Part shown: positions 26,769-59,473 of the stretch, in pieces | How the letters are laid out: each line of letters begins with the position of its first letter | Position numbering within the stretch: position 1 is the stretch's first letter | Notes under the pieces: model-generated | Database searches by the model: none | Told to the model about the DNA's origin: nothing | What the model saw: only the letters and a program-made list of their open reading frames with translations | Source of the DNA: Thermococcus piezophilus | GTDB lineage: Archaea > Methanobacteriota_B > Thermococci > Thermococcales > Thermococcaceae | Direction of reading: 5' to 3' | Length of the DNA stretch: 64,000 bases | NCBI RefSeq assembly: GCF_001647085.1 | Contig: NZ_CP015520.1 | Coordinates: 806,001-870,000 of the forward strand | Program-made: the position numbers and the translations under genes

Positions 26769-26828
26769 GTTATTCACACCCGGGTAATTTAATACGGCCC
26801 ATAATAAATACCTTTTGATTGCAGGCGA

Positions 26829-36291: not shown

Positions 36292-37349
<1,058 letters not shown>

Positions 37350-37511: not shown

Positions 37512-38200
37512 TTGCTGGTTGTCTTTCCGGTAGGCTTTGATGAGAAGTTCATAATTCGAGCCCTAATAAGGAAACGGGAAGAGATAGATGGACTTAAAAA
37601 TGGGGACAAGCTGGTGGCAATTTTACCCGAGGGTTATAAAAAAGAGCCAAGGACAATCAACGCACTGAATGCCATAGAGAGCATAGTCATTCCAATAGTG
37701 GGGGCAGAAAATATAGTTCGATTAGAGGTTCCCCTTAAAGATGAAGAAATTGTGCTGACGATAAAAAGAGAGATCGAAAGGAATTTAACACGGGATAGGG
37801 TCATCCTTGCGGTTCTATCGGGGGGATGAGACCCCTTATCGTGAGTACAATGCTGGCCCTTCTAAGCTTAGATGAGACCAGGATCATAGTTGAGAGTGAC
37901 TTTGAAAATCTCTCCGGCCATATCTCCCTCGAACTCACCCCATTCCTCGCTCCCAAGAGCAGGAGATGTATGTTAATCTTGAAGGGTCTTTGTGAGGGAA
38001 AAAGTGTCAGGGCCATAGCAGAAGAGCTTGGCGTTTCACCGGCAACGATAAGCAACGAGCTGAAGAAAATGAGTGGCTATTATCTTGTTCGTCCTGATGC
38101 CTCGGAAGGAAAAATCCCACGATATTCCGTAACTGGAGCCGGTAGGATTTACCTTATGCTGATGGAGTCGCAGAAGTTAAATTCAACAACTGGGACCTAA
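37512..38200 (+). pseudogene. csa3: CRISPR-associated transcription factor Csa3 (CARF-HTH), one frameshift
   Basis: The N-terminal CARF domain (37512-37829: LLVVFPVGFDEKFIIRALIRKR, then AVLSGG) is followed in another frame by MRPLIVSTMLALLSLDE and a winged helix-turn-helix (CEGKSVRAIAEELGVSPATISNELKKM) ending at 38200. LSGGMRPL is the conserved CARF junction of Csa3, so one G is missing from the run at 37820-37825. The two parts make a normal-sized protein of about 230 residues. Csa3 regulates adaptation genes and responds to cyclic oligoadenylate. TTG at 37512 is the likely start, preceded by GGGGGTGG. Confidence 0.85.
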
Positions 38201-38229: not shown

Positions 38230-38487
38230 TTAGATAATATCATCAATCGGATTCTTCTCTACCCCAAGGCTTTCCCTTTTTGGCTTTGAGCGGAGCTTGT
38301 AGATGATCACAGAGTCTTCGTCTTCATCAATTAGATCGAGCAGACCGGCTTTTATGCGCTCGAACTCGGCTAAGGTAGTTTCTCCCTCAAAAACGCTGTT
38401 TTGAACCCAATGCAAATACTGACGAAGGAACTTTTTAACCTTATTAACCCTCGAAACATTAACATCATAAACAATGACCACATACAT
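38230..38487 (-). CDS. cas2: CRISPR adaptation protein Cas2
   Basis: An 85-residue ferredoxin-fold protein opening with MYVVIVYDVNVSRVNKVKKFLRQYLHWVQNSVFEGE, the Cas2 signature including the early Asp and the VQNSVFEG strand. It bridges two Cas1 dimers in the integrase complex. It is convergent with csa3 (30 nt apart) and intact, unlike cas1. The segment upstream of it (38488-38945) is a candidate leader. Confidence 0.93.
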   Translation of the reverse strand: MYVVIVYDVNVSRVNKVKKFLRQYLHWVQNSVFEGETTLAEFERIKAGLLDLIDEDEDSVIIYKLRSKPKRESLGVEKNPIDDII

Positions 38488-38945
38488 GGCTCATCACAGT
38501 GAGTTTGACCATAATTCCATTTAATCTTTTTGGAGATTTTTCGATCCTCGCTGACGTTCTAGTTCTTGAAATTTTGGGGTTCTAATCTGGTTTGATTTTA
38601 AAATGGAGGCTTGAGAACGTGTTGGAAGGTTTTAGTAATTGTTTGTTATTAAATTACTTTAAGTTATAATTTTTGTTAGAATTGTAACGTTTTGAATGTA
38701 CATAGTTGGAATTAAGGATTCTGGGGGCTTTTTTGGTATTCCTTCCTCGTGGAAATTTGACCGTTTTAAAATTAAAAGTTAGGGAAGTTGGATTTTTGGA
38801 ATTAAAGGGTTTTTGAAATGTTGGAAGTCTTTTGGATATTATTGTGCAGTGAAGAATTGGATTCAGTGGTGAGGTTTATTTGCCAAGGGAAATCATGAAA
38901 CTTTCTAAATAGGGGGCTTGCTTGGGCTTTGCTATTAACCCTTCG
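38488..38945 (+). other. Candidate CRISPR leader left without its array
   Basis: About 460 nt with no reading frames and strong strand bias: the plus strand is rich in T and G and poor in C, unlike neighbouring coding DNA. It directly follows the adaptation genes, where a leader would sit. It stops abruptly at the terminal sequence of an IS element (TACTGTCAGGATAA, from 38946). No CRISPR repeat survives in the window at this point. Leader identity is inferred from position and composition. Confidence 0.45.
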
Positions 38946-39605
38946 ATACTGTCAGGATAAGCGGTGGGGCATTAGGTTTAAGTTTCTGGTAGTACTTCAA
39001 GAAAAGGGAGAGAAATGAGAACCGAAACATCCATATACTTGGTGGTTTCGGCCTTAAAACCCTTCCGCCGGAACAAAATTCCAGCAGAAAAGAAAATCAG
39101 GGCAGTAGAATTATACCTGCGAGGCCTCAGCTATCGCCAAGTTGCCAGGAATACTTAAAATCAGCCACACAACGGCTTGGCGGTCCAAAAATTGTTGAAA
39201 GGTTTACCGGCCAAAACTCCTCGCGGTAAGGAAGCAGAGGAAATTCATCGCGGTGGATGAGACTGTAATAAGAATCAATGGGGAGAAGAGGGCTGCGATT
39301 GATGTCGAAAGTAAGGCTTGAAGTCTGGATCACTGTAGTCAAACTGGTGGGTTGCCTGGGATTTCATTCTGGTTGTTTTAAAATCCCTGCGAGCAGGTTT
39401 TTTATGGTTGATAAAACGCTAATACAAGCCTGCCGTTAAGTCCTTGGGGCTGGTTCTGTTCACGTAATTAAGCTTGAGAACTGTGTTGAGCGCTGGTTCA
39501 GGACTGTTAAAGCTAGAAGTTTCTGGAATAATTTCAGGAGTAAGGATTGGAGGTTTGTTTTTCCCTTTGCCTTCTGGTATAATTTTGTTAGGGTTCACTC
39601 TCGAT
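38946..39605 (+). mobile_element. Decayed IS element with DDE transposase, interrupted at its 3' end
   Basis: The left terminus TACTGTCAGGATAA is followed by a transposase start at 39015 (ETSIYLVVSALKPFRRNKIPAEKKIRAVELYLRGLSYRQVAR), then, across several frameshifts and stops, ILKISHTTAWR, RKQRKFIAVDETVIRINGEKR (first catalytic Asp), NCVERWFRTVKAR with the late Glu, and FPFAFWYNFVRVHSR. The element matches IS6-like DDE transposases of Pyrococcus and Thermococcus in layout. Its last 30 nt are the first repeat of a CRISPR-like array, and its true 3' end now lies inverted at 47202-47298. Non-functional. Confidence 0.85.
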
Positions 39606-39660
39606 GAACATCACGAATGGTATAAGCCACAAAGGACCTATTGGTATAATTTTGTTAGGG
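39576..39660 (+). CRISPR. CRISPR-like repeat-spacer unit in the transposase gene, left half
   Basis: A 30-nt transposase sequence (39576-39605, beginning GGTATAATTTTGTTAGGG) is followed by a 37-nt unrelated sequence S1 (39606-39642, beginning GAACATCACG and ending ACCTATT). The first 18 nt of the same repeat come next (39643-39660). The second repeat is cut at GGG and joined to the body of lrgA. Repeat and insert lengths equal those of the partner array at 47269-47417. Confidence 0.8.
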
Positions 39661-40005
39661 CTGGCAATCATCCTCGGCTTTTTCCTTATCGGCGAGTGGC
39701 TGGGCGAGTGGCTAAACCTCTCGATTCCAGGAAGCGTCGTGGGAATGGTCCTCCTGATCCTAGCGCTTTTGAGCGGTCTGGTAAAGATTGAATGGGTCGA
39801 GAGAGAAGCCGAGTTCCTCGTGAGGAACATGAGCATCCTCTTCATCCCTCCAGGAGTTGGTGTAGTAACCTACCTTAGCCTAATAAAGAGCCAGGCGGTC
39901 CCGATATTTGCCGCCCTGATCCTCAGCTTCCTCGTTACACTGGTGGCAACGGCAAAGGTCGTCGAGTTGGTTAGAGAGAAAAACGGCAGAGGGGAGAGCA
40001 AATGA
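39604..40005 (+). CDS. lrgA: LrgA/CidA family membrane protein with a replaced 5' end
   Basis: From codon LAIILGFFLIGEWLGEWLNL (39661 on) this is a clear LrgA/CidA holin-like protein with four membrane helices and the SIPGSVVGMVLL signature. The 19 residues before it (starting MNITNGISHKGPIG) are encoded by the S1 insert and partial repeat of the CRISPR-like array, an accident of the inversion. The native start, ATGTACCGGGGG (MYRG), lies on the minus strand at 47426. The gene therefore lacks its own promoter and ribosome site and may be silent. Native body 39661-40005, overlapping lrgB by 4 nt. Confidence 0.85.
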   Translation: MNITNGISHKGPIGIILLGLAIILGFFLIGEWLGEWLNLSIPGSVVGMVLLILALLSGLVKIEWVEREAEFLVRNMSILFIPPGVGVVTYLSLIKSQAVPIFAALILSFLVTLVATAKVVELVREKNGRGESK

Positions 40006-40675
40006 ACCCCTTCGGGATAACGCTCACGCTAATAGTCTTTTACGCGTTCTCAGAGCTCTACAGGAAGAAAAAGGCCTTTTACCTCAACCCCGTGCTCCTC
40101 TCGATAATCACCATAGTGGTTCTGCTCAGGGAACTGGGCGTGACGTACGAGTACTACATGGACAGCGCGAGGATCCTCAGCTTCCTCTTGGGGCCGGCGG
40201 TGGTAAGCCTCGCGGTTCCAGTCTACAAGGGGAGGGAAACTATAAGGGTCTACGCCAAGGAAATCTGCCTCGGGATAATCTTCGGCGGAACGACAGCCAT
40301 TTTAACTGCTTTCTACATCGCCAAGCTTCTCGGGGCCCCCGAGAACATCCTCCTTAGCATAGCGCCGAAGAGCGTGACGACGGCGATAGCCATTGGCATC
40401 AGCGAGAAGATAGGCGGAGTCCCAGCTCTGACGGCAGTACTCGTCATCCTAACTGGAATACTGGGCAACGCCGTTGGGATGGAACTGCTGAACCTGGCCG
40501 GGATAAAGAACAGAATCGCAAAGGGTCTGCCATGGGAGTCACGTCTCACGGACTCGGAACGGCCCGGATAATCCTGGACGACGAGCTGAGCGGAGCGGTG
40601 AGCGGTTTAGCCATGGCCCTAAACGGAATCTTCACGTCACTCGTGCTTCCCTATCTCGTCGAACTTCTCAAGTAG
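40002..40675 (+). pseudogene. lrgB: LrgB family membrane protein, one frameshift near its end
   Basis: The first 176 codons give a polytopic LrgB protein (LLGPAVVSLAVPVYK and LLSIAPKSVTTAIAIGISEKIGGVPALTAVLVILTGILGN). After IAKGLP the frame breaks. Adding one C to CC at 40530-40531 restores MGVTSHGLGTARIILDDELSGAVSGLAMALNGIF and a stop at 40675, the complete LrgB C-terminus. LrgA and LrgB together influence membrane permeability and are proposed to export small metabolites. It overlaps the convergent Tfx gene by 39 nt once corrected. Confidence 0.85.
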
Positions 40676-41080
40676 GCACTCGCTTATCCTGAGCCTGTCC
40701 TTGGCGTCGAGGAAGAGCGTGAAGTCACGCTTGGCAATCCTGTCTGCGATTGGGGCATGCTCGACGAGGAAGGCTATGACCTCGGCCGTGCTGTACGGAA
40801 CCTTAATTTGAAGCTCGTCCGCCTTCTTGAAGAGCTTATCAGGGACCGCGAATATGTCCTCACCCTTTCTAACCTCAACACTTATCTTGGAGTTTATCTG
40901 CTCCCAGATGAGGATGGTGTTTCTGGCCTTCTCGATCTTCTCAATGGCCCTCCTCTCGAGTATGCTTATGTTGGCCCTGCTCGTACCCAAAAGCTCGGCT
41001 ATCTCGCTCTGCTTAAGCCCTCTCGCACGCAGACGGAGGATTTTAATCTGCTGCTCTGTGAGGAAGTTTTTCCCTGCCAT
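40637..41080 (-). CDS. Tfx family DNA-binding transcriptional regulator
   Basis: About 147 residues. The N-terminal helix-turn-helix (FLTEQQIKILRLRARGLKQSEIAELLGTSRANISILERRAIEKIEKARNT) matches the Tfx family. A C-terminal domain has the VPDKLFKKADELQIKVPYSTAEVIAFL motif. In Methanothermobacter, Tfx controls the molybdenum formylmethanofuran dehydrogenase operon. Thermococcales homologues are orphan regulators. Starts exist at GTG 41089 and ATG 41080. AGGTG at 7-nt spacing favours the ATG. Confidence 0.85.
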   Translation of the reverse strand: MAGKNFLTEQQIKILRLRARGLKQSEIAELLGTSRANISILERRAIEKIEKARNTILIWEQINSKISVEVRKGEDIFAVPDKLFKKADELQIKVPYSTAEVIAFLVEHAPIADRIAKRDFTLFLDAKDRLRISECLLEKFDEIGKHE

Positions 41081-41212
41081 TTTAAACACCTAAGTTTAAC
41101 AGGTATCAAAAGGTTAAAACTTTTTCCCCCACTAAACTTTCCTGTGGAGAAAAGGCCCATTAGAACCCTTCCTCGTGGAGAAGGCGATGACGTCAAGTTC
41201 ATTGAATTCTGG

Positions 41213-41290
41213 TGGTCCCGCGGCCCGGATTTGAACCGGGGACCTGCGGATCTACAGTCCGCCGCCGCTCCCAGGCTAGGCTACCGCGGG
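41213..41290 (-). tRNA. tRNA-Tyr (anticodon GTA), CCA encoded
   Basis: On the minus strand the acceptor CCCGCGG pairs with CCGCGGG, discriminator A and CCA at 41213-41215. The anticodon loop is CTGTAGA with anticodon GTA. The T arm contains GGTTCAAATCC. A TTTATAAACC promoter is at about 41325, upstream in the tRNA's direction. No intron. The 7-bp inverted repeat CCCGTTC/GAACGGG at 41298-41317 lies between promoter and tRNA. Confidence 0.96.
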
Positions 41291-41360
41291 ACCTGTGCCC
41301 GTTCCATAGTGAACGGGGTAGGTTTATAAATTTTTCTCCCGAGTTAGCCACGGTGAGAGC

Positions 41361-41942
41361 ATGAAGCTTTACGAACCCATTACCCTCGCCATGCCACTCG
41401 CGAAGTGGATCGGGGACTTCATAAGGGAGAACGGCCGTCTGCCGAGCGGCGAAGAGGTTAGAGAGGCAATGAAGGAGTTCGGCCTTGAGGAGAGCTGTTT
41501 AGACAGGGGGCTTGCCGTTTACAGGAGCCGCTTTTTAATTGCGCTGGTCTTCGCGAGGAACGAGAACCTCATCATTGACGTAATCTCCTCCAGCGGAGAG
41601 CTGAGCGACGCCCTCGAGGTCATAGCATACCACGACAAGAAGATAGAGGCCTTCGTGGTGGAGATACTGCCGACTAACGACCTCGAATACGAGGGCAACA
41701 TCGGCATCGAGCCCATAATCCTAGATGAGAAAAGCCTAGAGCCCGAAAGCAGCCCTGTGCTGGGCCACTTCGAGGAGGACAACGGGGGAATGTTTCTCGT
41801 CATCGACGGAGAAACCTACGAGCGCTGGAGGGAGGGAGAAGACGTTACCACCTGCCCAATCTGCGGTGGGGAGCTGGCCTGGAGGGGTGAGAAGGCATAC
41901 TGCTTGGACTGCGGTTATGGAGTTAAGGTGGTGAGGAAATGA
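41361..41942 (+). CDS. Conserved archaeal protein with C-terminal zinc ribbon, unknown function
   Basis: A 193-residue protein. The N-terminal half is helical (KWIGDFIRENGRLPSGEEVREAMKEFGL). The middle is an alpha/beta domain with strands FLIALVFARN, LIIDVISS and AFVVEILP. The C-terminus is a CPICGGELAWRGEKAYCLDCGYG zinc ribbon (about 164-186). It may bind nucleic acid or protein through the ribbon. It overlaps the next gene by 4 nt (ATGA), so the two are translated together, which hints at a shared function with the class II aldolase. No name assigned. Confidence 0.7.
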   Translation: MKLYEPITLAMPLAKWIGDFIRENGRLPSGEEVREAMKEFGLEESCLDRGLAVYRSRFLIALVFARNENLIIDVISSSGELSDALEVIAYHDKKIEAFVVEILPTNDLEYEGNIGIEPIILDEKSLEPESSPVLGHFEEDNGGMFLVIDGETYERWREGEDVTTCPICGGELAWRGEKAYCLDCGYGVKVVRK

Positions 41943-42499
41943 GCCGCGCTGTTAAGTCCCAGCTTGTCCAATACTCCCGCCTCGCCCACGAGAGGGGCCT
42001 AACGGCCGCTTTTGGAGGTAATTTAAGCATAAGACAGGGAAATCTGATCTTTATCAAGGCCACAGGGGCCGTCATGGACGACATGACTAAGGAGCAGGTG
42101 GCGGTAATCGACATGAACGGAAAACAGCTGTCAGCTATTAGGCCCTCCTCCGAGTACAGGCTCCACCTGGCGATTTACCGCGATAGACCGGACGTCAAGG
42201 CTATAGCCCACCTCCACCCACCGTATTCAATAATTGCAGCGACCATGCTCGAGATGGAACTCCCGATAATAACTCCAGAGGCGGAGCTGTACCTAAGAAG
42301 GATACCGATTGTACCCTTTAGGCCCGCCGGAACGAAGGAGCTGGCAGAGGCTGTCGCAGGGGTTATATGTCAGTCAGACGCCGTCCTGATGGAAAAGCAT
42401 GGCATCGTCACCGTCGGGAAGAGCCTGAGGGAAGCATTCTACAAGGCCGAACTGGTTGAGGAGAGCGCAAAGCTATGGTACTTGAGCAGAAAAGTATAA
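41939..42499 (+). CDS. fucA: Class II aldolase (L-fuculose-phosphate aldolase type)
   Basis: A 186-residue class II aldolase/adducin fold. FGGNLSIRQGNLIFIKATGAVMDDM is the phosphate-binding start. ILHLHPP-like AHLHPPYS (about 82-89) carries two zinc His residues, and MEKHGIVTVGKS the third. TPEAELYLRRIPIVPF contains the expected catalytic acid. In archaea such enzymes split fuculose-1-phosphate or provide dihydroxyacetone phosphate and lactaldehyde in deoxyhexose or cofactor-side pathways (the Methanocaldococcus homologue makes lactaldehyde for F420). The substrate here is unproven. Confidence 0.85.
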   Translation: MSRAVKSQLVQYSRLAHERGLTAAFGGNLSIRQGNLIFIKATGAVMDDMTKEQVAVIDMNGKQLSAIRPSSEYRLHLAIYRDRPDVKAIAHLHPPYSIIAATMLEMELPIITPEAELYLRRIPIVPFRPAGTKELAEAVAGVICQSDAVLMEKHGIVTVGKSLREAFYKAELVEESAKLWYLSRKV

Positions 42500-42549
42500 G
42501 CAACACGAATCATCAAAACGCAGGAAATGAGCGGGAAAAGTAAAAGCGC

Positions 42550-42801
42550 TCACTTAACCTGCTCAAGAGCTCCGAGGACCTCCCAGATTATGGTCCTCGT
42601 GTGCATAGGCATGTTCGGGTCCTCGCTAATCTCCTCAAGGATGGCTATCGCGTCGGCGGCTCTGACGGCCGGCTCCTTGCTCTCGTCGAGGAGAACCTCT
42701 ATAGCCTGCTCGGCGGCTCTCCTAATGTTCCTCGGAACGACAGTGTCCTGGACGACTTGCTCCTTGAGAACCTGCACAATCTGGTGAATCAGCTCGCTCA
42801 T
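42550..42801 (-). CDS. UPF0147 family protein
   Basis: An 83-residue all-helical protein matching UPF0147 throughout ([28 protein letters not shown], then [21 protein letters not shown]). The family is conserved across euryarchaea, small, soluble and without known function. GGGGTGAT precedes the ATG. It is convergent with fucA. Confidence 0.9.
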
Positions 42802-42908
42802 TCTATCACCCCCTTTTCTAAAGAATTGTTACTAAAATCTCCTCGGGTTATCTTAAGCTTTCCTAACTAAAAAACTTTTCGGTTAACGTCGAAACTAAAG
42901 AAGGAAAA

Positions 42909-43436
42909 TCAGTACTCGATCCCTTTCCTCGCCAGGATGCCCCTCTGGTAGGGGTGCTTTATCTCCCTCATCTCGGTGACGTAGTCAGCTAACTCGAAGA
43001 GCTCCTTTGGGCAGTAGCGGCCGGTGATGACGAGCTCGGTGTGGGGTGCTTTGCTCTTGATGAGCTCCCTGACTTCCTCGACGTCGAGCATGCCGAAGCC
43101 CAAGGCGACGCAGAGCTCGTCGAGGATTACCAGACCCCACTCGCCGCTTGAGACCACCTCTTTAGCGCGCTCTAATGCCCTTTTGGCGGCCTCTATGTCG
43201 TCGGGCTCGGGTTTGCCGTGGACGAACTTCGGTAACCCAAAGGACTCTATGACCGCGCCGCATTCCGCTATCTTCTTCTGCTCTCCGTAAACGTTCCCGG
43301 CCTTCATGAACTGGAGGATTATCACCTTCCCGCCGGAGCCGAGCATTCTCACCGCGAGGCCAAAGGCTGCTGTGGTTTTTCCCTTCCCGTTGCCCGTGTA
43401 GATGTGAACTAAGCCGAGCTTGTCTTTCCAGGGCAT
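42909..43436 (-). CDS. cobO: Cob(I)yrinic acid a,c-diamide adenosyltransferase (CobO/BtuR family)
   Basis: A 175-residue P-loop protein with YTGNGKGKTTAAFGLAVRMLG (P-loop about 13-33), VIILQFMKAG, the GLVILDELCVALGFGM Walker B region and ELVITGRYCPKEL. This is the CobA/CobO/BtuR type, which transfers adenosyl from ATP to the corrin cobalt to make coenzyme B12. Length is normal for the family. The gene stands alone between UPF0147 and a methylase on the other strand. It marks the end of core genes before the restriction locus. Confidence 0.9.
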   Translation of the reverse strand: MPWKDKLGLVHIYTGNGKGKTTAAFGLAVRMLGSGGKVIILQFMKAGNVYGEQKKIAECGAVIESFGLPKFVHGKPEPDDIEAAKRALERAKEVVSSGEWGLVILDELCVALGFGMLDVEEVRELIKSKAPHTELVITGRYCPKELFELADYVTEMREIKHPYQRGILARKGIEY

Positions 43437-43534
43437 GTGGATTCACCTGGGTGGATATAATCGCCAAGGGTTTTTAGGAGTTTGGATGAAAGTTATAAGA
43501 AACTTAAGCAAACTAAAGCAATGGAGGAACAAAT

Positions 43535-44491
43535 ATGAGAGAAGTTCCGTTTGAGGAATATCTGGAATTCATAAAAAAGTACGATCACGTCATTATAGGG
43601 AATCAAAGAATAGAGATTGGAAAACCTATCCCAATCAAAACATTTCAGCCTCAGAACTTCAAGCTTGAAACAACGACCGTATGGAGCTTTCCAGAGCGGG
43701 GGAAATGGGCAACTCATCATGCAAATGCAAAATACAGGGGAAATTGGGCGCCCCAGGTTCCGCGAAACCTGATACTGCAATATACAAAGCCGGGAGATCT
43801 TGTACTAGATGCATTTCTCGGAAGTGGAACAACTTTGATAGAGTGCAAACTACTAGGAAGACACGGGATCGGGGTTGACATAAATTATGAGGCTCTAATG
43901 GTTGCATGGGATAGGTTAAATTTCGAATATGATCCCAGAATAGAAAACCAGTCTACGTTAAGTTCGTACCTTGGCATAAGAGAAGAGATAGAGTGGGTTA
44001 AACCTAAGATACGACTCTACCAGGGAGACGCGAGGAATCTAGACAAAATCGAAGACGAGAGCATAGATCTAATAGCAACTCATCCCCCTTACGCTAACAT
44101 CATTGGGTATACAAAAAAAGCAAAGTCCCCTGTGAAGGGGGATCTGTCCAATGTAAGATCCATAGATGAATTCGTTTCAGAAATAAAGAAGGTTGCCGAG
44201 GAATTTTATAGGGTTCTAAAACCGGGAAAATATGTAGCAATCTTGATTGGAGATACCAGACGGCACAGGCATTATGTTCCAATAGCATTTAGAGTCATGA
44301 AGGTGTTTTTGGAAGCTGGATTTATATTAAAGGAGGACATTATCAAGGTTCAGCATCATATGAGGGGTACAGAACCCTGGAAAACAAAGAAGAGAGACTT
44401 CTATCTGATTGCACATGAACATCTGTTCGTATTCAGAAAATTGGGAGAAGGGGAGAAAATCGAGAAATTCCGAGAAAGTAGAGTGGTTTAA
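43535..44491 (+). CDS. Type II DNA methyltransferase (amino-methylating, PPY type)
   Basis: A 318-residue methylase. The SAM-binding DAFLGSGTTLIECKLLGRHGIGVDIN (about 92-117) precedes the catalytic LIATHPPYANIIGY (about 180-193) in some order of motifs, and a second SAM-fold strand YVAILIGDTRRHRHYVP follows. THPPY in place of DPPY still fits N4-cytosine or N6-adenine transfer. The DNA is clearly more AT-rich than the flanking core genes, a sign of transfer. It converges with a 208-residue unknown gene, overlapping by 4 nt, and is near a Dam-type methylase. The set resembles a two-methylase restriction system. Confidence 0.85.
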   Translation: MREVPFEEYLEFIKKYDHVIIGNQRIEIGKPIPIKTFQPQNFKLETTTVWSFPERGKWATHHANAKYRGNWAPQVPRNLILQYTKPGDLVLDAFLGSGTTLIECKLLGRHGIGVDINYEALMVAWDRLNFEYDPRIENQSTLSSYLGIREEIEWVKPKIRLYQGDARNLDKIEDESIDLIATHPPYANIIGYTKKAKSPVKGDLSNVRSIDEFVSEIKKVAEEFYRVLKPGKYVAILIGDTRRHRHYVPIAFRVMKVFLEAGFILKEDIIKVQHHMRGTEPWKTKKRDFYLIAHEHLFVFRKLGEGEKIEKFRESRVV

Positions 44492-45114
44492 CTCCTCCAA
44501 AGCTCAAAAAGGGAAATACCATATTTCTTCGGCGCTGGCCTATTTCGAACGGCAGTCGTTATTATTTTGTCTATATCACCGTATTCGCTCTGTGCGATCC
44601 ATCGTATGAACCGCATAAGAAACTCTCGGGGAGGATCAAGTTTGCTCTCTTTGCATCCCCTGCTACCATAATTCCAATCCTGCTCGGCCATTAGTAATGA
44701 GCCATAGAAAACAGTTACATCAGGGGGATCGAGTTCCATTGAGAAATTTATACCCCGAACGTCGTCTAGAACCTCATTTATGTCATCTCCATGATTAATC
44801 CGTTCAAATGCCAAAAACACAGCCCTCGCATGCTTTTCATCACTTATCCGCTTAAGATACAAGTCAAAGAACAACCGAACATGTGTTGGGGCAAATTCTT
44901 TTCTTCCCTCAGGTTGGAGAACGACTTTAAAATCTCCCGGACATATCTTGTCTGTTCTGACAATGTAGACCTTGGTTCCGTTGGAGCCAGAATATAACAG
45001 GGCCCTTCCTCCTTCTTTGATAACTCTACGGGTCTTTTTAGTCTCCTTTATTTCTGCAGGTCTTAGCTTTTGAACTATCTCAAAAACATCATCCACTTTC
45101 ACGAACTTCACCAA
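44488..45114 (-). CDS. Unknown 208-residue protein, candidate restriction endonuclease
   Basis: It lies between two DNA methylases and is AT-rich like both. I recognise no family. Possible nuclease-like pieces are EGGRALLYSGSNGTKVYIVRTD, FKVVLQPEGRKEF and SMELDPPDVTVFYGSLLMAEQDWNY, where spaced acidic residues and an E-x-K-like pair could form an active site. That is a guess from position. The C-terminal YGDIDKIITTAVRNRPAPKKYG is basic and may contact DNA. It is 24 nt downstream of dam and probably co-transcribed with it. Confidence 0.5.
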   Translation of the reverse strand: MVKFVKVDDVFEIVQKLRPAEIKETKKTRRVIKEGGRALLYSGSNGTKVYIVRTDKICPGDFKVVLQPEGRKEFAPTHVRLFFDLYLKRISDEKHARAVFLAFERINHGDDINEVLDDVRGINFSMELDPPDVTVFYGSLLMAEQDWNYGSRGCKESKLDPPREFLMRFIRWIAQSEYGDIDKIITTAVRNRPAPKKYGISLFELWRS

Positions 45115-45138
45115 ATATCAAAAAGAAGGCAGGACTTT

Positions 45139-46089
45139 TTAAATAGATCGCTCTGCAACGGTTAAATACTCAATAAGCGACTTAGAAGTCATCAAAGCCT
45201 TCGATTTATCGCTGTTGACAAGGAGCTTTGCTCTTTCCCGGCCCAATTGTAATTCCGTAGGAACATTCGTAACGAGCATCTCAGGGACTTCACCCCTGCG
45301 ATCGGCTTTTGAGTTTATTGGCCTCTTTGCGTAGATCTTGGATATTCTAAATCCCTCTATCCCCTCATACAGCTCACGAATTGGCTTTACATAGGAGTTG
45401 CTTAGGATAAAGTAAACCCCTTTCTCATGGAGTTCAAGGCAGACGTCTCTGAGGCGCTCCTGGTCTTCTTTGCTGAAATCTTCCTTTGAATAGCTGGTAA
45501 AACTGGCAGTTTCTGAAACAGGGTGATAGGGGGGATCAAAATAAACCAGGTCTCCAGGCTTGGCAACTCTCAAGATATAGGTGAAGTCTTCGTTGTAAAT
45601 ATCGAGCTTTTTCAAAACTTCACTAGCCTTTCTGAGTCGCTCTTCGTCTACTATCTTAGGGTTTTTGTATCTACCAAACGGAACATTGAACTCGCCTTTC
45701 CTATTCTCGCGGTATAAGCCATTGAAGGCAGTTTTATTTAAGTACAAAAGCAGGCTCGCGAGTCTAATATTTGGAATTTCAAATCCGTTTCTAACTATCT
45801 CATTGAACTCCGCACGAGCCTTGTAGAAGTACTCCTTCTCATTTTTGTGCCTCTTTGCATCTTCAATTAGTTCGTCAACGTGATCTCTAACAACGACATA
45901 GAAGTTTATGAGTTTGGGATTTATGTCGTTTATAGTCCCCCTTTTGGGCTCCATCCAGAAAGTAACCGCACCGCCGCCAAAAAATGGCTCATGGAACGTT
46001 CTATTTCTAAAGTCCTTTGGCATTAACGCAACGATTTCATGGAGTATCTGCCTCTTCCCACCGGCCCACTTAAGGATAGGTTCTGCCAT
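45139..46089 (-). CDS. dam: Dam-family DNA adenine methyltransferase
   Basis: A 316-residue D12-class adenine-N6 methylase. The N-terminal ILKWAGGKRQIL (about 5-16) is the SAM motif, FHEPFFGGGAVTFWM the second, and VYFDPPYHPVSETASFTSY (about 191-209) the catalytic DPPY. The central domain has LYLNKTAFNGLYRENRKGEFNVPFGRYK, characteristic of Dam/DpnM enzymes that methylate GATC. Target GATC is suggested by family, not shown. An AGGAGGATG ribosome site precedes the ATG. Two copies of the GTGCAACATAA repeat lie 60-100 nt upstream, likely operators of the neighbouring regulator. Confidence 0.9.
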   Translation of the reverse strand: MAEPILKWAGGKRQILHEIVALMPKDFRNRTFHEPFFGGGAVTFWMEPKRGTINDINPKLINFYVVVRDHVDELIEDAKRHKNEKEYFYKARAEFNEIVRNGFEIPNIRLASLLLYLNKTAFNGLYRENRKGEFNVPFGRYKNPKIVDEERLRKASEVLKKLDIYNEDFTYILRVAKPGDLVYFDPPYHPVSETASFTSYSKEDFSKEDQERLRDVCLELHEKGVYFILSNSYVKPIRELYEGIEGFRISKIYAKRPINSKADRRGEVPEMLVTNVPTELQLGRERAKLLVNSDKSKALMTSKSLIEYLTVAERSI

Positions 46090-46150
46090 CGATTACATCC
46101 TCCTAGCCATTATTTAGGTCACGCCCTAATAAGGCATTCGATAAAATTAC

Positions 46151-46186
46151 GTGCAACATAAATATAAAACTTTTGGTGCAACATAA
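46151..46186 (-). promoter_or_regulatory. Direct-repeat operator candidates upstream of dam
   Basis: GTGCAACATAA occurs at 46151-46161 and 46176-46186, 25 nt apart, in the promoter region of dam (minus strand TTATGTTGCAC). A third exact copy is at 46658-46668, just upstream of the small DNA-binding-protein gene. All three are in the same orientation and none is in coding DNA, as expected for sites of a shared regulator. Confidence 0.55.
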
Positions 46187-46189
46187 TGT

Positions 46190-46639
46190 TCATGATTTAT
46201 ACTCGAGACCCAACCTCTTTCTAATATAGTTAGATATGTCCAATCCCTCCTCCTGTGCCTGCTTAGAAATCGTCTCATACTCTTCCCCAGTAACGCGGAT
46301 TGACAACCACTTATTCCGCTTGTTTCTGGCAGCTACCGTTCTAGCTTCAATTTCCCATATTTCTTTGAGGGCCCTAGCTTTTTTCTTAAGCAGTTTGGTG
46401 CCATTTAACCCTGAAAATTCCCTAGCAAGAATTTTCTTGAAATCAGAAACTACTTGAGGATCTCCTCCAGAATATTTAGCAAACTCATTCACGGCCAGTT
46501 CAACGGCAGTAGTCTCATTTGGGACATTTTTAGATTTCAGGATCACCTCAAAGGCCCTAGTTCCAGCAACGGGAATTTTTAGCTTACGGGTAGCCGGGGT
46601 CTTTAACGCTATGAGTTGTTTTATGATCTTTTCGAACAT
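46190..46639 (-). CDS. Small putative DNA-binding regulator of the restriction locus
   Basis: About 149 residues. The C-terminal 45 residues (KRNKWLSIRVTGEEYETISKQAQEEGLDISNYIRKRLGLEYKS) look like a ribbon-helix-helix/MobC-type DNA-binding module: a short strand, then two helices with a conserved-looking G-x-x-I-S-N-Y-I-R turn. The N-terminal part is basic and helical. A longer frame starts at 46666, but GGTGG precedes the ATG at 46639. A GTGCAACATAA copy lies 19-29 nt upstream and two more precede dam. It is therefore a candidate autoregulated control protein. Family assignment is tentative. Confidence 0.6.
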   Translation of the reverse strand: MFEKIIKQLIALKTPATRKLKIPVAGTRAFEVILKSKNVPNETTAVELAVNEFAKYSGGDPQVVSDFKKILAREFSGLNGTKLLKKKARALKEIWEIEARTVAARNKRNKWLSIRVTGEEYETISKQAQEEGLDISNYIRKRLGLEYKS

Positions 46640-46657
46640 GAGTTCCACCAATATAAC

Positions 46658-46668
46658 GTGCAACATAA
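46658..46668 (-). promoter_or_regulatory. Third copy of the GTGCAACATAA operator candidate
   Basis: Exact copy of the 11-mer found twice upstream of dam, here 19 nt before the start of the small regulator gene. Position overlaps the expected transcription start, fitting autorepression. Confidence 0.5.
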
Positions 46669-46727
46669 AGAGAATTTAAAGGTTAACCCGCTGAAAAATT
46701 TAAGGATATGGGATTTATAGGGGATAT

Positions 46728-47010
46728 TCCTGCCAGAGACTGTAGAGAGGATATTAAAAACCGGGGACATTGCCAAAATCACCGTTCTAGAAAAGGACGA
46801 TAACGAGATTAAGAGACTTGAAGTGGAAATTGTCGATAAGAGCAAAAAATAAAACGGACGTTCGAAGTTCCAAGCGAGTTTCAAGTTAATAACACAACAA
46901 TCAAACTGGAAAAAGGCAACCGGCGCGGTAAGTATAAGGAATTTGACTTTAGAATAAAACTTAAGCCTCCCAATTCCAAAGAGTTTACGCCAACTCATGC
47001 CCATTTACCC
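46728..47010 (+). pseudogene. Fragment of an unidentified gene
   Basis: On the plus strand LPETVERILKTGDIAKITVLEKDD then EIKRLEVEIVDKSKK reads as normal protein, then a shift of frame gives KRTFEVPSEFQVNNTTIKLEKG and KYKEFDFRIKLKPPNSKEFTPTHAHL. Composition is right for protein, but no start is present and the two parts are in different frames. The family is not recognised. It runs directly into the EVE fragment, so this is debris of two genes side by side. Confidence 0.5.
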
Positions 47011-47020
47011 CTAAATCAAA

Positions 47021-47161
47021 CTCGGCGAGCTCAACTTTAAACCATTGACTCCAAAGCTCAACTTTATTACGAACAAAAAACGCTGGAGCGGGCATTTAAT
47101 GGGCAAGGCTATGCGAGAGATCCTGGAGGAGGACTATAGGCTGATTGAAAACCTGTTTTGA
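47021..47161 (+). pseudogene. C-terminal fragment of an EVE-domain gene
   Basis: The last 46 codons ([20 protein letters not shown], then [26 protein letters not shown], stop) are nearly identical to the C-terminus of the intact EVE gene at 16082. Only a few substitutions separate them (for example EIPEDD versus EILEED). There is no N-terminal half or start. It is the remnant of a second EVE gene that sat near the restriction locus. Confidence 0.88.
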
Positions 47162-47201
47162 CTTTGTGGTGGATTTATAAACTTTTCTCCCTATTGAAAC
47201 A

Positions 47202-47298
47202 TACTGTCAGGATAACTGTGGATTCACCTCATGAAGCCATTCAGTTACATCACCAGGCGGAGAATCAAATCGAGAATGAACCCTAACAAAATTATACC
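47202..47298 (-). mobile_element. IS element right end, inverted away from its left part
   Basis: The minus strand reads YNFVRVHSRFDSPPGDV then TEWLHEVNPQLS, stop, then TTATCCTGACAGTATG, the IS terminus. It is the same protein end as at 26829. Its upstream sequence is not the rest of the transposase but the CRISPR-like array, whose first repeat (47269-47298) doubles as native transposase coding sequence. The left part of the same IS lies on the plus strand at 38946-39605. Confidence 0.85.
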
Positions 47299-47417
47299 TC
47301 TTCCACTTCAAGAAGTTCACAATTGACCTCACCGTATCGAGAGTGAACCCTAACAAAATTATACCAATAGGTCCTTTGTGGCTTATACCATTCGTGATGT
47401 TCATCGAGAGTGAACCC
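47269..47417 (-). CRISPR. CRISPR-like array in the transposase gene, right half
   Basis: On the minus strand, from 47417 down: a partial 15-nt repeat (47403-47417), insert S1 of 37 nt (47366-47402), full repeat of 30 nt (47336-47365), insert S2 of 37 nt (47299-47335) and a full repeat of 30 nt (47269-47298) that runs into native transposase sequence. Repeats begin GGTATAATTTTGTTAGGG and differ from each other at one base (CACTCTC versus CATTCTC). S1 is identical to the insert at 39606-39642. S2 begins ACGGTGAGGTCAATTG. Neither insert matches the transposase. Confidence 0.82.
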
Positions 47418-47426
47418 CCGGTACAT
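47418..47426 (-). other. Orphan native start of lrgA
   Basis: Minus strand ATGTACCGG, preceded by GAGGGG and a TTTATA box, gives MYR. Followed by the GGG shared at the break and the CTGGCAATC now at 39661, it restores MYRGLAIILGFF, the normal LrgA N-terminus. The lrgA promoter therefore stayed at 47.4 kb when the rest of the gene was inverted to 39.7 kb. Confidence 0.8.
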
Positions 47427-47508
47427 ATTCCCCTCTGTGGTGTTGAAGTATAAAAAGCCTCCCGAAATGCCAATAAGGCTGGTCACCCTAATTTCGTTGG
47501 GTGATAAG

Positions 47509-48940
47509 ATGCTGCTCAGAAACTACCGCTTCTCCCCGCGCTACGGCCTCGAATAGGGCAGTGGCGGGGTATTCGGCCTTGGGTGCCACAACGGCGTTCT
47601 CCACTTCACCCTCGCATTTGAAGCCGAGGCCCACTTCATTGGGGATGGTGAGGAGAAAACCTACGACTTCACGCTGGTCGGCGATGGGTCAACCTCCGGT
47701 GGGGACACCTACAACGCGGTAACTGCCGTCGATGAGTACATCTACTTCGGCGGCTGGGTTCACGCGCCCGCGGTCTATAAAAACCGGACGATAAGCTTCG
47801 TCAACAAGTACTCCCACGTGCACGCCTACGACACAGAAAACGACACTGTGAGGCTTCTCTGGAAGGAGTCAATCCACCACGAGACCGACTGGACGGATGA
47901 GGTTAGCGATATAATCTACGATCCATACGGCGACAGACTCCTGCTGGCCAGGGAGGACGGCCACGCAAACCTTGGCGTTTACACCCTCGACAGGAGAACC
48001 GGCAAAGCTGAGGCCCTGATGCACGAACCGGCCCTGAAGGGAACCCTCGTGCACGACAGCATATTCGTTGGAGTCGGCAACAACTTCGTGGGTGGGATAA
48101 GGGAGTCCAGAGCGCTTGATTTGATAACCGGGAAGTGGGAGACCTTTGAACCCGGGAAAAGCGTCAACGGGGGACCGTACATAAGGCCAGAGCTGGGAGC
48201 AATGGCAAGCTCTTATAACCGTGCTTTTGCATTTGTCCGCGGCGGACTCTTCGTTGGAAACCCTTTCATGGGCGAGGATTTCACCTTCTTCAGGCTGTTC
48301 GATTTCTACACGTTCTACGCACCCTTCAGGGTGAACGTGGTAAACGTCGGGGGAGGTATTCTCACGGCATTCAACGCGCACCATAACGCGGTATACATGT
48401 CCGGAAACGAGGAGGTGGCAGTGAACGCAAGGATAACCAACACGATAGTTGCCCCAGCGTTCTGGTGTACATCGCGCCGCCGGTGGTCAAGATAGTTGGC
48501 GCCTTCGGGGCGAGGATAACGAGCATAGAGAAGGCCGAGGGGAAGATTCTCCTGGTGATGAACAGCGCACCCAACACAAGTGAAACTGAGGCGACGCCCT
48601 TCGATACGGGGCGTTAGGGACATCGTTCTCCTCGATGAGAAAATCCTCCAAGAAAGACCTCCAGCTGTAAGCTTTTCCCTGCCCCTGTCACTCCCGAGCA
48701 TGGCCAGAAACTTTGGGGCGGGGACGTTCGGATGAATTCCACTCGACGGCTACCGCGAGCTGAGGGCTGTGTTCTACCTGAGTTCTGACAACAGGGTCAC
48801 CGTTTACGAGTACGACCTCTTGCTTCCTCCCACTAAGGCTCAGGCCGAGACCTTTGAGCTGAAGTGAGGGAAGAACGTCCTGGATCTAAGTTACTTCAGC
48901 GGAATCGCTTCGTTCGAACTCGAAAAGGAAGATCTGAAAT
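47509..48940 (+). pseudogene. Degraded DUF2139 family gene
   Basis: The gene starts LLRNYRFSPRYGLE with GGGTGAT before it, then hits TAG, but continues in frame as GSGGVFGLGCHNGVLHF and VDEYIYFGGWVHAPAVYKN, matching DUF2139, a beta-propeller-like archaeal family. Frameshifts follow at about 48455 and 48605, with further stops (FG-IPLDGY near 48735 and ELK-GKNVL near 48867) before the final stop at 48940. Multiple nonsense codons, not only single-base deletions, show real decay. It was divergently transcribed from lrgA. Confidence 0.8.
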
Positions 48941-48981
48941 GAAAAGTCAGAATAGATCTTCGCTGATTCCTTTTTATTTCC

Positions 48982-49281
48982 TCAGGACTCCGCCTTGCCG
49001 AGGAGGTTGTTCCAGCTGTGACTGGACTTGATGAGATCCGCAACTGTTAAGTGCTCCTCACCGGTAACCTCGGGCTCAAGCTCCTTCAGCTTTCCGATGA
49101 GCTCCTCCCGGCTCAGCTTTTCCTCATCAAACACCACGTAGCCGTTCCGGGCGAAGCCGTTGATGAAGGCCCGCCATATTCTTGTATCCGTCAGGAGTTC
49201 GTACTGCTTTGCTCTGGCTTCCTCGGGGGTTATCCTTCCGAACCTGAAGTCGAGTTTTGTGAGGGTTTTCTCGGGGTTCAT
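48982..49281 (-). CDS. Small conserved protein next to the tetraether-synthase-like gene
   Basis: A 99-residue acidic protein without cysteines or membrane segments (KLDFRFGRITPEEARAKQYELLTDTRIWRAFINGFARNGYVVFDEEKLSREEL). No family recognised. The ATG at 49281 is chosen because GAGGTGGTG precedes it. It begins 11 nt after the stop of the radical SAM gene on the same strand, so the two are co-expressed and it may be a partner of that enzyme. Confidence 0.65.
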   Translation of the reverse strand: MNPEKTLTKLDFRFGRITPEEARAKQYELLTDTRIWRAFINGFARNGYVVFDEEKLSREELIGKLKELEPEVTGEEHLTVADLIKSSHSWNNLLGKAES

Positions 49282-49291
49282 TGCCACCACC

Positions 49292-51067
49292 TCAGGCCTT
49301 CGTATTTATCGTTCCGAAGTAGTCCTCTATGTCGATGTAGGTCTTTTTGTAGAGCTCGCTGTTCTTCATCTTCTCGACGAACTCTTTTGTCCTTACGTAC
49401 TTGTCCTTCTTGTAGTCCCAGTCTGGGTGCAGCTTCTTCCACTCCTCCCAGGTGTAGCTGAACTGGGCCTGGACCTTGTCTCTGTAGAGCTCTGGAATCA
49501 CGTTGAAGGCACAGAACGGCACTATTCTTCCGTCGGGCAGGGCGTAGTGGATGACGCAGCGCTCAACCCTCTCGACGTCGTAGTTGTACTCGTCCATGAA
49601 GTGCATCATTCCGAGGAAGAGCGCGTTGATGTGGAACTTTCCAAGGGCCTCGTAGTTTCCGTGCATGAAGGCGTTCTTGATGAGGCCGAGGACGTCGAGG
49701 TCTTTGGGAGCGTACTTTTCGTCGTAGAAGCTCTTGAACTTGAGGAATATCTCGGCTCCGAGCTTGAGCTTCTGGAGCCTGCCGAGTTGCTTCCACTTCT
49801 CTATTTCCTCAGCCCTGCTCTCAAGGTACTCGACGAAGCCCTCAACATCAAGGAAGCGCGAGATCGGAACGACGCGCTTCTTTTCCCTGTCGAGGAAGAC
49901 GTAGGTGGCAGCACCGCAGCAGTAATGGCTGGTCATGTAGTAGCGAGAGCCGGTGAAGGCCTCGAAAAAGCGCGCTATGTGGCCGGCTATCGGTATTGGG
50001 TACCAGTCATCCATCGCTATTGCCCCGCCGGTCTGCTCCTCTATGCGCTTTATTGCTCCTGGGATTGTTATCCTGAACCTCTGGCGCTCCTTCTTTGGAA
50101 CCCTGCCGACGAGAGAAATCGGCTGGAAGTTCACACCTCTAACGATGTCGAGGTGGTTAAGGCCAAAGTTGATTATCGCACCGAGCTCGTGGTCGTTGAC
50201 GTTCCTTATGGTGGTTGGAACGAGCACTATTCCGGGACCGCCTGCCTTCCTTACGTTCTCGAAGATGAGCGGAATCTCCCAATGGTTCTTCCAGTTGGTC
50301 TGGGGCGTCATTCCATCGTAGCTCAGATAGAGGGTGTTCACCCCTGCCTCCCTAATCTTCGTGACCAGCTCTGGCTCGAAGGCGAGCTTGATTCCATCCG
50401 TGTTTAGCTGGACGTGGTCGTAGCCCTCTTCCTTCGCTATCTTGATGATTTCTATGAGGTCTTCTCTAATTGTTGGCTCTCCACCCGTGAGCTGAACGGC
50501 GTTGGCTCCAACTGGGTACTCCTTCTTAGCGTTGCGAAGCATCATGCGAATCTGCTCAAGCGTCGGCTCGTAGATGGGCTGGCCTTCCTTGGCGTAGAAG
50601 AAGCAGTACCAGCAGCTCAGGTTGCAGCGGTTGGTGAGAACGATGTTGAGCAGGTTGGTGTGAGAGCGGTGTCTGGCACACAATCCACAGTCGAAGGGGC
50701 AGTTGACGCCTGAGTTCTCGACGTTGAAACTGAGGAGCCTCCAGTCATACTTCCATTTCTGGAAGCGGTAGTACTGCTCAACGCTCTCATAATAAACATC
50801 GGTGATCATGCCTTCGGGACAGCGCTTGGTTATCCAAACCTTTCCATCCTTCTCCCAGATGAGTGCGGGAACGACTCTCCTCGTCTCGGGACACAGGGAA
50901 TACGTCTTATGTGGCAGCGGGTCGCCGTAATTCCTGCTGGCGGCCTTTATCATCTCCTCAAACTCTTCCTCCGTGAGCTCGGGAAACTCAATGATGTCCC
51001 GTACTCTGCGGGTGAGCTGCTCGAACTCCTTTTCCCCGCTGGGTACTTCGCCAACACTCTCTGCCAT
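49292..51067 (-). CDS. tes: Radical SAM enzyme of the tetraether synthase (Tes) family
   Basis: About 590 residues. An N-terminal cysteine-rich part (CPETRR, CPEG and NCPFDCGLCARH) precedes the radical SAM cluster motif VLTNRCNLSCWYCFF (CxxxCxxC) and LTGGEPTIREDL. A C-terminal region with HYCCGAATYVF and VPFCAFN offers further cluster ligands. The order matches Tes/MJ0619-type proteins, which join the phytanyl tails of two archaeal lipids to make tetraether membrane lipids. Thermococcales make such lipids, so the role fits, but paralogues exist and the exact member is not certain. GGAGAGGTGA precedes the ATG at 51067. An upstream ATG at 51109 is less likely. Confidence 0.8.
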   Translation of the reverse strand: MAESVGEVPSGEKEFEQLTRRVRDIIEFPELTEEEFEEMIKAASRNYGDPLPHKTYSLCPETRRVVPALIWEKDGKVWITKRCPEGMITDVYYESVEQYYRFQKWKYDWRLLSFNVENSGVNCPFDCGLCARHRSHTNLLNIVLTNRCNLSCWYCFFYAKEGQPIYEPTLEQIRMMLRNAKKEYPVGANAVQLTGGEPTIREDLIEIIKIAKEEGYDHVQLNTDGIKLAFEPELVTKIREAGVNTLYLSYDGMTPQTNWKNHWEIPLIFENVRKAGGPGIVLVPTTIRNVNDHELGAIINFGLNHLDIVRGVNFQPISLVGRVPKKERQRFRITIPGAIKRIEEQTGGAIAMDDWYPIPIAGHIARFFEAFTGSRYYMTSHYCCGAATYVFLDREKKRVVPISRFLDVEGFVEYLESRAEEIEKWKQLGRLQKLKLGAEIFLKFKSFYDEKYAPKDLDVLGLIKNAFMHGNYEALGKFHINALFLGMMHFMDEYNYDVERVERCVIHYALPDGRIVPFCAFNVIPELYRDKVQAQFSYTWEEWKKLHPDWDYKKDKYVRTKEFVEKMKNSELYKKTYIDIEDYFGTINTKA

Positions 51068-51283
51068 AGGGGTCACCTCTCCCATCTTTGCCTTTAGTCG
51101 AGTCTTCAATCACTGAGTATAAAAACTTTTGCGTAAATATGCAGATTTGCTTTCATAGGTGGGATGGGGGTGGGTTCATCTGGCTTACCTGGTGAAGTTT
51201 TGAGCATCCCACTGGGTAGGGGCTAAAGTCTTGGCGGGAAGAAACGGTTAAAAGTTCCGGGTCAAACTTAAGGCGGTGGTAGA

Positions 51284-51643
51284 ATGCCAGCGAGAGAGAT
51301 GAGGATGGAGATGTTCTTCCGGGCGCTCCTCAGGAGGGACTTCAGCAAGGCCAAGACCCATCTCGAAAAGCTCCAGAAGATGGTCGGGAGCGACGAGTGG
51401 GGGCGCGGCTACGGCAAGGCGATAACTGGATTCATGAGCGCCATAAAGGACAACGACCCCGATGCGTTGATAGTCCAGCTTATAAAGGAGCATGACAGGG
51501 AGAAGGCCGAGAAGCTGCTGAAGCACTTCGGGGGAATTCTCGAGCACGACTTCCGCGACGAGTACGAGAGGGGCTACTACACAGCCTGGATCGAGTTCCT
51601 CAAGGCTTACCTCTCTCAGAAGGCACTGACGCAGAAGCTCTGA
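51284..51643 (+). CDS. Small helical conserved protein, unknown
   Basis: A 119-residue all-helical protein (MEMFFRALLRRDFSKAKTHLEKLQKM, then WGRGYGKAITGFMSAIKDNDPDALI and YERGYYTAWIEFLKAYL). The repeated RGYxxA-x-x-G/E pattern suggests two helical hairpins. Found ahead of uracil-DNA glycosylase with a 9-nt gap, so the two are co-transcribed and a repair-related role is possible. No family assigned. Confidence 0.65.
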   Translation: MPAREMRMEMFFRALLRRDFSKAKTHLEKLQKMVGSDEWGRGYGKAITGFMSAIKDNDPDALIVQLIKEHDREKAEKLLKHFGGILEHDFRDEYERGYYTAWIEFLKAYLSQKALTQKL

Positions 51644-51652
51644 GGTGTTCTC

Positions 51653-52240
51653 ATGGGGAAAGAAGAGCTCATGAAAAAGCTAGCGGAGAAAATTAGAAGC
51701 TGCCGAAAGTGTCCCCTCGGCGAGCTCAGGACGAACACAGTTCCAGGTGCTGGGAGCTACGAGGCCAAGGTGATGTTCGTCGGGGAAGCTCCGGGCTACT
51801 GGGAGGACCAGAAAGGGCTTCCTTTCGTTGGGAGGGCAGGAAAGGTTCTTGACGAGCTTTTGGCGGAGATTGGCCTTAAACGAGAGGACGTCTATATCAC
51901 CAACATAATCAAATGCCGTCCTCCAGACAATAGAGACCCAACGGAGGATGAAATCAAGGCTTGTTCGCCGTATCTTGACAGGCAGATAGACATCATAAAG
52001 CCAAAGGTCATCGTTCCACTTGGGAGACACTCGATGCGTTACATACTCGAGAAGTTCGGCTTCGATACTGAGCCGATAAGCAAGATACACGGAAAAACCT
52101 TCGAAGCGCACACACTTTTCGGGAAGATTGTCATAATGCCGATGTACCACCCTGCCGTCGCCCTTTACCGTCCAACTTTGAGGGAGGAGCTCATGAAGGA
52201 CTTTCATAAGTTGAAAACGCTGATTGGAGAATCTTTGTGA
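51653..52240 (+). CDS. Type-4 (Fe-S) uracil-DNA glycosylase
   Basis: A 195-residue UDGa. The four cluster Cys are in SCRKCPLG, NIIKCRPP and IKACSPYL. The water-activating motif GEAPGYWED (about 43-51), the GLPFVGRAG loop, and the late MYHPAVALY His motif (about 164-172) define family 4. It removes uracil, produced by cytosine deamination at high temperature, from DNA. Start at GGTGTTCTC-ATG. Confidence 0.93.
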   Translation: MGKEELMKKLAEKIRSCRKCPLGELRTNTVPGAGSYEAKVMFVGEAPGYWEDQKGLPFVGRAGKVLDELLAEIGLKREDVYITNIIKCRPPDNRDPTEDEIKACSPYLDRQIDIIKPKVIVPLGRHSMRYILEKFGFDTEPISKIHGKTFEAHTLFGKIVIMPMYHPAVALYRPTLREELMKDFHKLKTLIGESL

Positions 52241-52549
52241 AAATTTCTTCACTCATCACTTACTCTTCTGAGTGATTTTCTCTCTTTCAGCATTTTTAAG
52301 GTTTAATTGCGCTTTTCTGAAGCTTTTTCTGGGAAAGGTTTTTATGATATTAGTAGACATTAATGTACTTGAAAGTCCCAATTAATGCAGAGATCCGTGA
52401 AATTCACCTCGAATGCAGTAACTGAGTCTTTAATGGGTGGAAGCGTTCCCAAAAATTTTTCGAGAATACGACAGTATGACAAAGGATATACAGAAAGCTT
52501 TATATTTGCCTCGTATTCCTTTGCATGAAACACTTCAGGAGGTGAAAAT
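52241..52549. other. Intergenic region and promoter of the antiporter gene
   Basis: No gene seen in 309 nt. A weak hairpin (ATCACT/AGTGAT around 52255-52276 followed by TTTTCTCTCTTTC) may end the uracil-DNA glycosylase transcript. A GCTTTATATTTGCC TATA box at about 52498 and AGGAGGTG at 52536-52543 belong to the next gene. Confidence 0.45.
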
Positions 52550-54208: not shown

Positions 54209-54282
54209 TTTCCTCTTTTTCCGTACCTTTCCTTCACCAATTTTAAAAACATGAGAGAGCACTCTTCTTAGAGGTGATGGTG

Positions 54283-55185: not shown

Positions 55186-55225
55186 ACTTTTATCTTCTTC
55201 AGCCCTATTCCCCTCGGTGGTGAGT

Positions 55226-57605: not shown

Positions 57606-57747
57606 GATATAGTTTCTCCTTTATCGCTTATTAACCTGATTTCCTCCCCGCCCTGAAGGACAAGGCTTGATAGAATAGCCAAGCTTTTTAAGGTTTGTGT
57701 ATATCTAATGCTGAATTCATGCCACGATTGACATGGGGGTGTTTAAA

Positions 57748-59091: not shown

Positions 59092-59150
59092 TGGATAATC
59101 CTCCTGTTTTTTAAATTATAAATTATTAATAAATGATTGGAAGAAAAGCC

Positions 59151-59366: not shown

Positions 59367-59473
59367 CAACGGCACCGTTATTTATTACTCGCTCATCCTA
59401 AATAAACCTTCCGAAGGGGGTTTTGACGTTCATTCAAGGTTAGGTTTATAAAGCCTCCCCGAAATGGGCAATT

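Follow-up and report, generated by a model that had tools for sequence, protein, structure and literature searches.

Probable off-target spacer integration as the origin of a small repeat-spacer array in an IS6-family element and of an insert in cas1 of Thermococcus piezophilus

In the genome of Thermococcus piezophilus, a transposase gene carries direct repeats of its own sequence separated by short inserts of another sequence, which raises the question of how a repeat-spacer array came to lie inside a mobile element. The window analyzed here is a stretch of 64,000 nucleotides (contig NZ_CP015520.1, positions 806,001 to 870,000), and coordinates refer to it unless the genome is named. An initial annotation, made from the letters of the window alone, explained the repeats by repeated Cas1-Cas2 integration at a site that is not a clustered regularly interspaced short palindromic repeats (CRISPR) locus. 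This explanation is supported by the present analysis: judging from the sequence, off-target spacer integration by Cas1-Cas2 very probably accounts for all three inserts now recognized, two in the insertion sequence (IS) and one in cas1.

The left part of the IS6-family element (38946–39605, forward strand) aligns continuously to IS copies of relatives up to and including the repeat R1 (39576–39605), a 30-nt target duplication in a derived CACTC form. It is followed on the same strand by the 37-nt insert S1 (39606–39642) and by the first 18 nt of a next repeat (39643–39660), which passes at GGG through an inversion junction into cidA; S1 therefore lies between repeat sequences on both sides, and this partial repeat had escaped the initial annotation. 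The right part of the element (47201–47298, reverse strand) includes R3 (47269–47298), a 30-nt repeat with the base usual in the IS (CATTC) and one change with respect to R1. On the same strand are found the 37-nt insert S2 (47299–47335); R2 (47336–47365), 30 nt long and identical to R1; a second, identical copy of S1 (47366–47402), created by the inversion; and the last 15 nt of the repeat (47403–47417), before the junction into the 5′ end of cidA. The limits of R2-S2-R3 are unambiguous, with repeats of 30 nt and an insert of 37 nt, and the series R-S2-R-S1 can be read directly at 47269–47417 as direct repeats with unique spacers and a regular period. The positions and identities first given for R1, R2, R3, S1, and S2 are exact to the base.

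The repeat is uninterrupted in about 25 IS copies of other Thermococcaceae genomes, in which the next transposase codons follow directly. When the two halves of the element are joined without the inserts, they align over about 730 nt with the IS copy of a relative, which encodes a 233-aa transposase of the IS6 family; the family name comes from this intact copy. By this comparison, S1 and S2 are insertions into the IS6 transposase gene, not part of its sequence, as had been claimed, and the finding named beforehand as a refutation, S1 and S2 as native sequence of intact IS copies, was sought with a negative result. Another trace of this IS6 family, a 3′ remnant, occurs at 26828–26936, between phoU-like and large methyltransferase genes. 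A further observation is that a 3′ fragment of the gene at 16082–16513 is duplicated just past the right end of the IS, as an inverted repeat with 81% identity between 47015–47165 and 16078–16228.

The array itself has stood, while the description of two separate sites has not: a single array was divided by an inversion. Both sites hold one copy of a perfect inverted duplicate of 70 nt, X (39591–39660, forward strand; 47348–47417, reverse strand), composed of half of the repeat, S1, and half of the repeat. In a relative that is 94–95% identical (G040), the sequences corresponding to 39658–43483 and 47415–59557 are contiguous and join in cidA at ATGTACCGGGGGCTGGCAATC; the inversion therefore covers the roughly 7.8 kb that separate them in the window. 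The native part of cidA beyond the breakpoint (LrgA family, PF03788; 39658–40005, forward strand) was delimited by this same comparison, and its native 5′ end, ATGTACCGGGGG, lies at 47415–47426 on the reverse strand, contiguous in G040 with the sequence from 39658 onward. One breakpoint is near codon 4 of cidA, the other is in the array, and GGG is common to both junctions. X corresponds to one repeat-spacer unit (67 nt) plus GGG, as expected if R1 and R2 were cut at the same position. The order before the inversion was accordingly IS(left)-R1-S1-R2-S2-R3-IS(right), and on this reconstruction the inversion is later than the formation of the array and duplicated 70 nt of it. The possibility that S1 is the native 5′ sequence of cidA was rejected, since cidA of G040 starts with ATGTACCGGGGGCTGGCAATC. 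Since the inversion, the present cidA open reading frame (ORF; 39604–40005) has as its start codon an ATG reaching into the beginning of S1, and its first 18 or so residues (MNITNGISHKGPIGIILLG) come from S1 and repeat sequence, replacing the native MYRG.

The one variable site of the repeat indicates the order of the insertions. CATTC is usual among the IS copies and is kept in R3, while R1 and R2 have CACTC; this is explained most simply if S1 came second, on the left. The most parsimonious succession would be the insertion of S2, one change in the left repeat, and the insertion of S1 at this left repeat. Two integrations at one IS target have identical 30-nt boundaries.

A third insert was revealed by an exact direct-repeat scan of the window, which found a repeat pair with a period of 65 in cas1 that the initial annotation had missed. 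This gene (36304–37349, forward strand, with PF01867 matches on both pieces) has its frame broken by 65 nt, consisting of a duplication and an insert: two exact 28-nt copies of the target (36427–36454 and 36492–36519) flank the 37-nt insert S3 (36455–36491), all on the forward strand. Without the extra 65 nt, a complete Cas1 reading frame of 326 aa is restored, and cas1 is uninterrupted at this site in 29 of the 29 relatives examined. S3 is single-copy in this genome and absent from 93 relatives; likewise, no further occurrence of S1 or S2 was found in this genome and none in the 93 relatives. None of the three inserts was found as native sequence in the IS or cas1 of relatives. The genome has cas1 and cas2, and a second cas1, without stops, is located at genome positions 1386283–1387101.

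The sizes of these events are those of the host's own CRISPR system. Genuine arrays of this genome have the repeats GTTGCAATAAGACTCTAGGAGAATTGAAA(G/C/A) and GTTTCAGTAGGACAGAATTGTGTGGAAAC. In three of them, a 29-nt repeat is followed by a 30th base that varies little or not at all within an array, and the modal spacer is 37 nt when the repeat is counted as 30 nt; one array combines a 29-nt repeat with spacers that are mostly 37–38 nt long. Periods are mostly 66–67. The inserts measure 37, 37, and 37 nt and the target duplications 30, 30, and 28 nt, so that the CRISPR-like lengths noted at first do match the 29/30-nt repeats and mostly 37–38-nt spacers of this very genome. The GC content of the inserts (0.41, 0.43, and 0.49) can be set beside the average of 0.44 for genuine spacers. 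The sequences of the new repeats are those of IS6 and cas1 and are unrelated to the host CRISPR repeats. Among the genuine arrays, L078 (genome 1383298–1384693) has a 61-nt ‘spacer’ made of a near-copy of the neighboring spacer, a partial repeat, and a stretch of 18 nt shared exactly with a spacer in another array (genome 147.8–149.0 kb).

The cas1 gene belongs to an adaptation module of the window that comprises cas1, csa3, cas2, and a leader. The cas2 gene (38230–38487, reverse strand; PF09827, TIGR01573) is followed by a truncated CRISPR leader (38488–38945, forward strand), about 80% identical to the leaders of three relatives (G086, G087, and G089). In these relatives, the region after cas2 enters the CRISPR repeat via ...CTTTTATAATTCAA...CCCT/GTTYCAATAAGACT, where the slash marks the leader-repeat junction here and in the motifs below. 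In the window, the leader ends at 38945, some 65–70 bp before the expected junction; the array is gone, and the IS terminal repeat ATACTGTCAGGATAA starts directly afterwards, at 38946. Comparison with the relatives shows that the IS6 element took the place of the array and of the leader end. This same IS took up S2 and S1, in the polarity of the lost array, and the recipient of S3 is the cas1 of the same module. The end of the truncated leader lies 631 bp before R1, and the new repeats have no complete adjoining leader.

All three events fall within about 3.2 kb. In a scan of 864–884 kb of the genome (45%), sampled as stretches and with the genuine arrays and one 19-nt tandem repeat set aside, no other strong direct repeats were found at this spacing; the remaining matches were one of 16 nt inside a gene and a weak one of 21/26. 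Given one site, the chance that the only other site falls within about 3.2 kb of it is roughly 0.7%, with sites taken as uniform over the sample. A 16-nt repeat with period 67 at genome position 1847875 was not counted as a fourth event, because it lies at the end of an apparently native coding sequence. Proximity to the truncated leader may well have mattered for the choice of sites.

Both targets also resemble a leader-repeat junction. Genuine leaders end in CCT/G in four of four cases; the cas1 target reads GGGCCT/GGGAAG on the bottom strand, and the IS target CTTCT/GGTATAA, with the junction TTCT/GGTATAAT. YCTG occurs, in either orientation, at about 1.6% of window positions. It is unlikely that both targets match YCT/G by chance, a comparison of moderate weight for a short motif compared after the fact, and the motif may have guided the integration. 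The leader-like side of the IS target is the side where S1 was added. A stem-loop as the recruiting feature found no support: the cas1 target folds no better than its shuffles (z −0.7), and no fold was obtained for the IS target.

The event in cas1, the match with host lengths, the empty sites in relatives, the leader-like junctions, and the addition on the leader side all strengthen the case for repeated integration. Several points weigh against it. The basis throughout is the assembled genome sequence, the repeat scan extended over less than half of the genome, the YCT/G motif is short, and the duplication in cas1 is 28 nt, not 30. In addition, no protospacer for S1–S3 was found in 94 genomes of the family, in plasmids and phages, or in viral contigs; S1, searched also in genome contigs, gave no match. 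The initial annotation had looked to a protospacer as support for a spacer origin, and this support did not appear; genuine spacers fare equally, with 16 of 20 having no match in the same 94 genomes and 28 searched against plasmids without a match. For this reason, the missing protospacer carries little weight either way. As none was found, it is unproven that the inserts came from foreign DNA. Weak matches of S2 (20–21 nt, in many genomes) were treated as chance because they do not extend into the rest of S2.

Among the other explanations, the repair of breaks without Cas1 fares best, and we consider it improbable. At staggered breaks, overhangs of about 30 nt would be filled in and some 37 nt of filler captured, or template switching would yield duplication and insert together. 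Breakage and repair did act here, as seen in the inversion with its duplicated 70-nt breakpoint and GGG microhomology, but repair gives no reason why 37-nt inserts and 28–30-nt duplications should match one another or the CRISPR dimensions of the host, and it would not be expected to strike one target twice with identical 30-nt limits. An artefact of assembly or sequencing appears very unlikely: although the csa3 frameshift at a run of G described below could be a sequencing error, the genome is a single contig, 99% complete, and three unique 37-nt sequences with no other genomic source are hard to make by misassembly. A product of transposition, whether small mobile inserts causing long duplications of their targets or a rearrangement of the IS sequence, is the least credible of all, for while two of the three inserts sit in the IS, they differ in sequence, have no common ends, and are absent from other IS copies and the rest of the genome in the searches done, and the third is in cas1.

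Off-target integration, the preferred explanation, could have proceeded as follows. Once the array and the leader end at the cas1-csa3-cas2 module had given way to the IS6 element, Cas1-Cas2, from this locus or with the second cas1, would have joined fragments of about 37 bp to chromosomal look-alikes of the YCT/G leader junction. Both ends of a 28–30 bp target would be nicked and gap filling would duplicate the target, as in normal adaptation; this step is suggested by the anatomy of the sites, and catalysis by Cas1-Cas2 by the features considered above. The IS target would have been used twice, for S2 and then for S1 on the leader side, to give R-S1-R-S2-R, and cas1 would have been hit once, with the loss of its frame. 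The later inversion, with breakpoints in the new array and in cidA, would have split the array and duplicated 70 nt. The array in the IS is probably not a working immune array, because its repeats are unrelated to those of the host and no leader adjoins it.

A more specific proposal is that, once the array and the leader end were lost, what remained of the leader, with Cas1-Cas2, diverted integration to look-alikes within a few kb, founding a polarized array in the replacing IS and inactivating cas1, possibly released by the loss of Csa3. We advance it tentatively and lean slightly against it. The csa3 regulator gene (37512–38200, forward strand; PF22662 and helix-turn-helix matches, PADLOC) is in two frames, split at a run of G near 37822–37830, and this frameshift could be real or a sequencing error. 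It is the sole Csa3 match in the genome; in relatives, the gene is one ORF, mostly of 225–270 aa, and many relatives have no detectable Csa3. Csa3a of Sulfolobus islandicus suppresses non-specific integration by Cas1 in vitro (PMC9456107). Here csa3 likewise stands beside cas1, and its loss could release non-specific integration; unlike that experiment with another species, the frameshift is a sequence observation that may be an error. By this analogy, a lost restraint by Csa3 is a possible but weak cause of the stray integration.

Integration outside arrays is known experimentally, according to works cited in PMC9456107 and PMC13034035. With genuine arrays of this genome, the new one shares repeat and spacer lengths, period, the junction CCT/G, and leader-side addition, and it differs from them in its unrelated repeat sequences, the missing adjoining leader, and the presence of only one or two spacers at a site. 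Natural off-target (‘neo-CRISPR’) cases in Yersinia pestis and S. islandicus were reportedly proposed by Nivala, Shipman and Church in 2018. These cases reportedly also consist of inserts the size of spacers, placed outside arrays at sites like a leader junction and flanked by target duplications as long as a repeat; unlike them, one target was used twice here with leader-side polarity, in an IS that replaced an array, and another insert broke cas1. As in the inactivation of CRISPR-Cas by IS (PMC10359306), the IS disables leader and array here, and in contrast to those cases, cas1 was broken by a spacer-like insert and not by an IS.

The literature searched, from which subscription papers were mostly absent, gave no account of a spacer within cas1 or of a polarized two-spacer array in an IS; the polarized two-spacer array and the hit in cas1 look new. 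It is an open question how CRISPR repeats and arrays first arise, and spacer integration outside arrays has rarely been exemplified in nature. The repeated use of one new target with leader-side polarity suggests that a site of stray integration can take the role of a repeat on more than one occasion, while the hit in cas1 represents a cost, as stray integration can break an adaptation gene itself. If integration was indeed redirected by the surviving leader, the locus would document, in nature, how a new repeat was born and how the adaptation machinery limited itself. With both target sequences known, stray integration lends itself to direct testing.

Other features of the window include a defence-island-like operon (16786–26831) with a helicase, an AAA+ ATPase, and a large methyltransferase, matched by HmaA/HmaC/HmaB-type models and others. 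Further methyltransferases are found at 43535–44491 and 45139–46089. An apparent tRNA-guanine transglycosylase gene (archaeosine synthesis) occupies 31724–33456 as two ORFs, split around 32143–32194.

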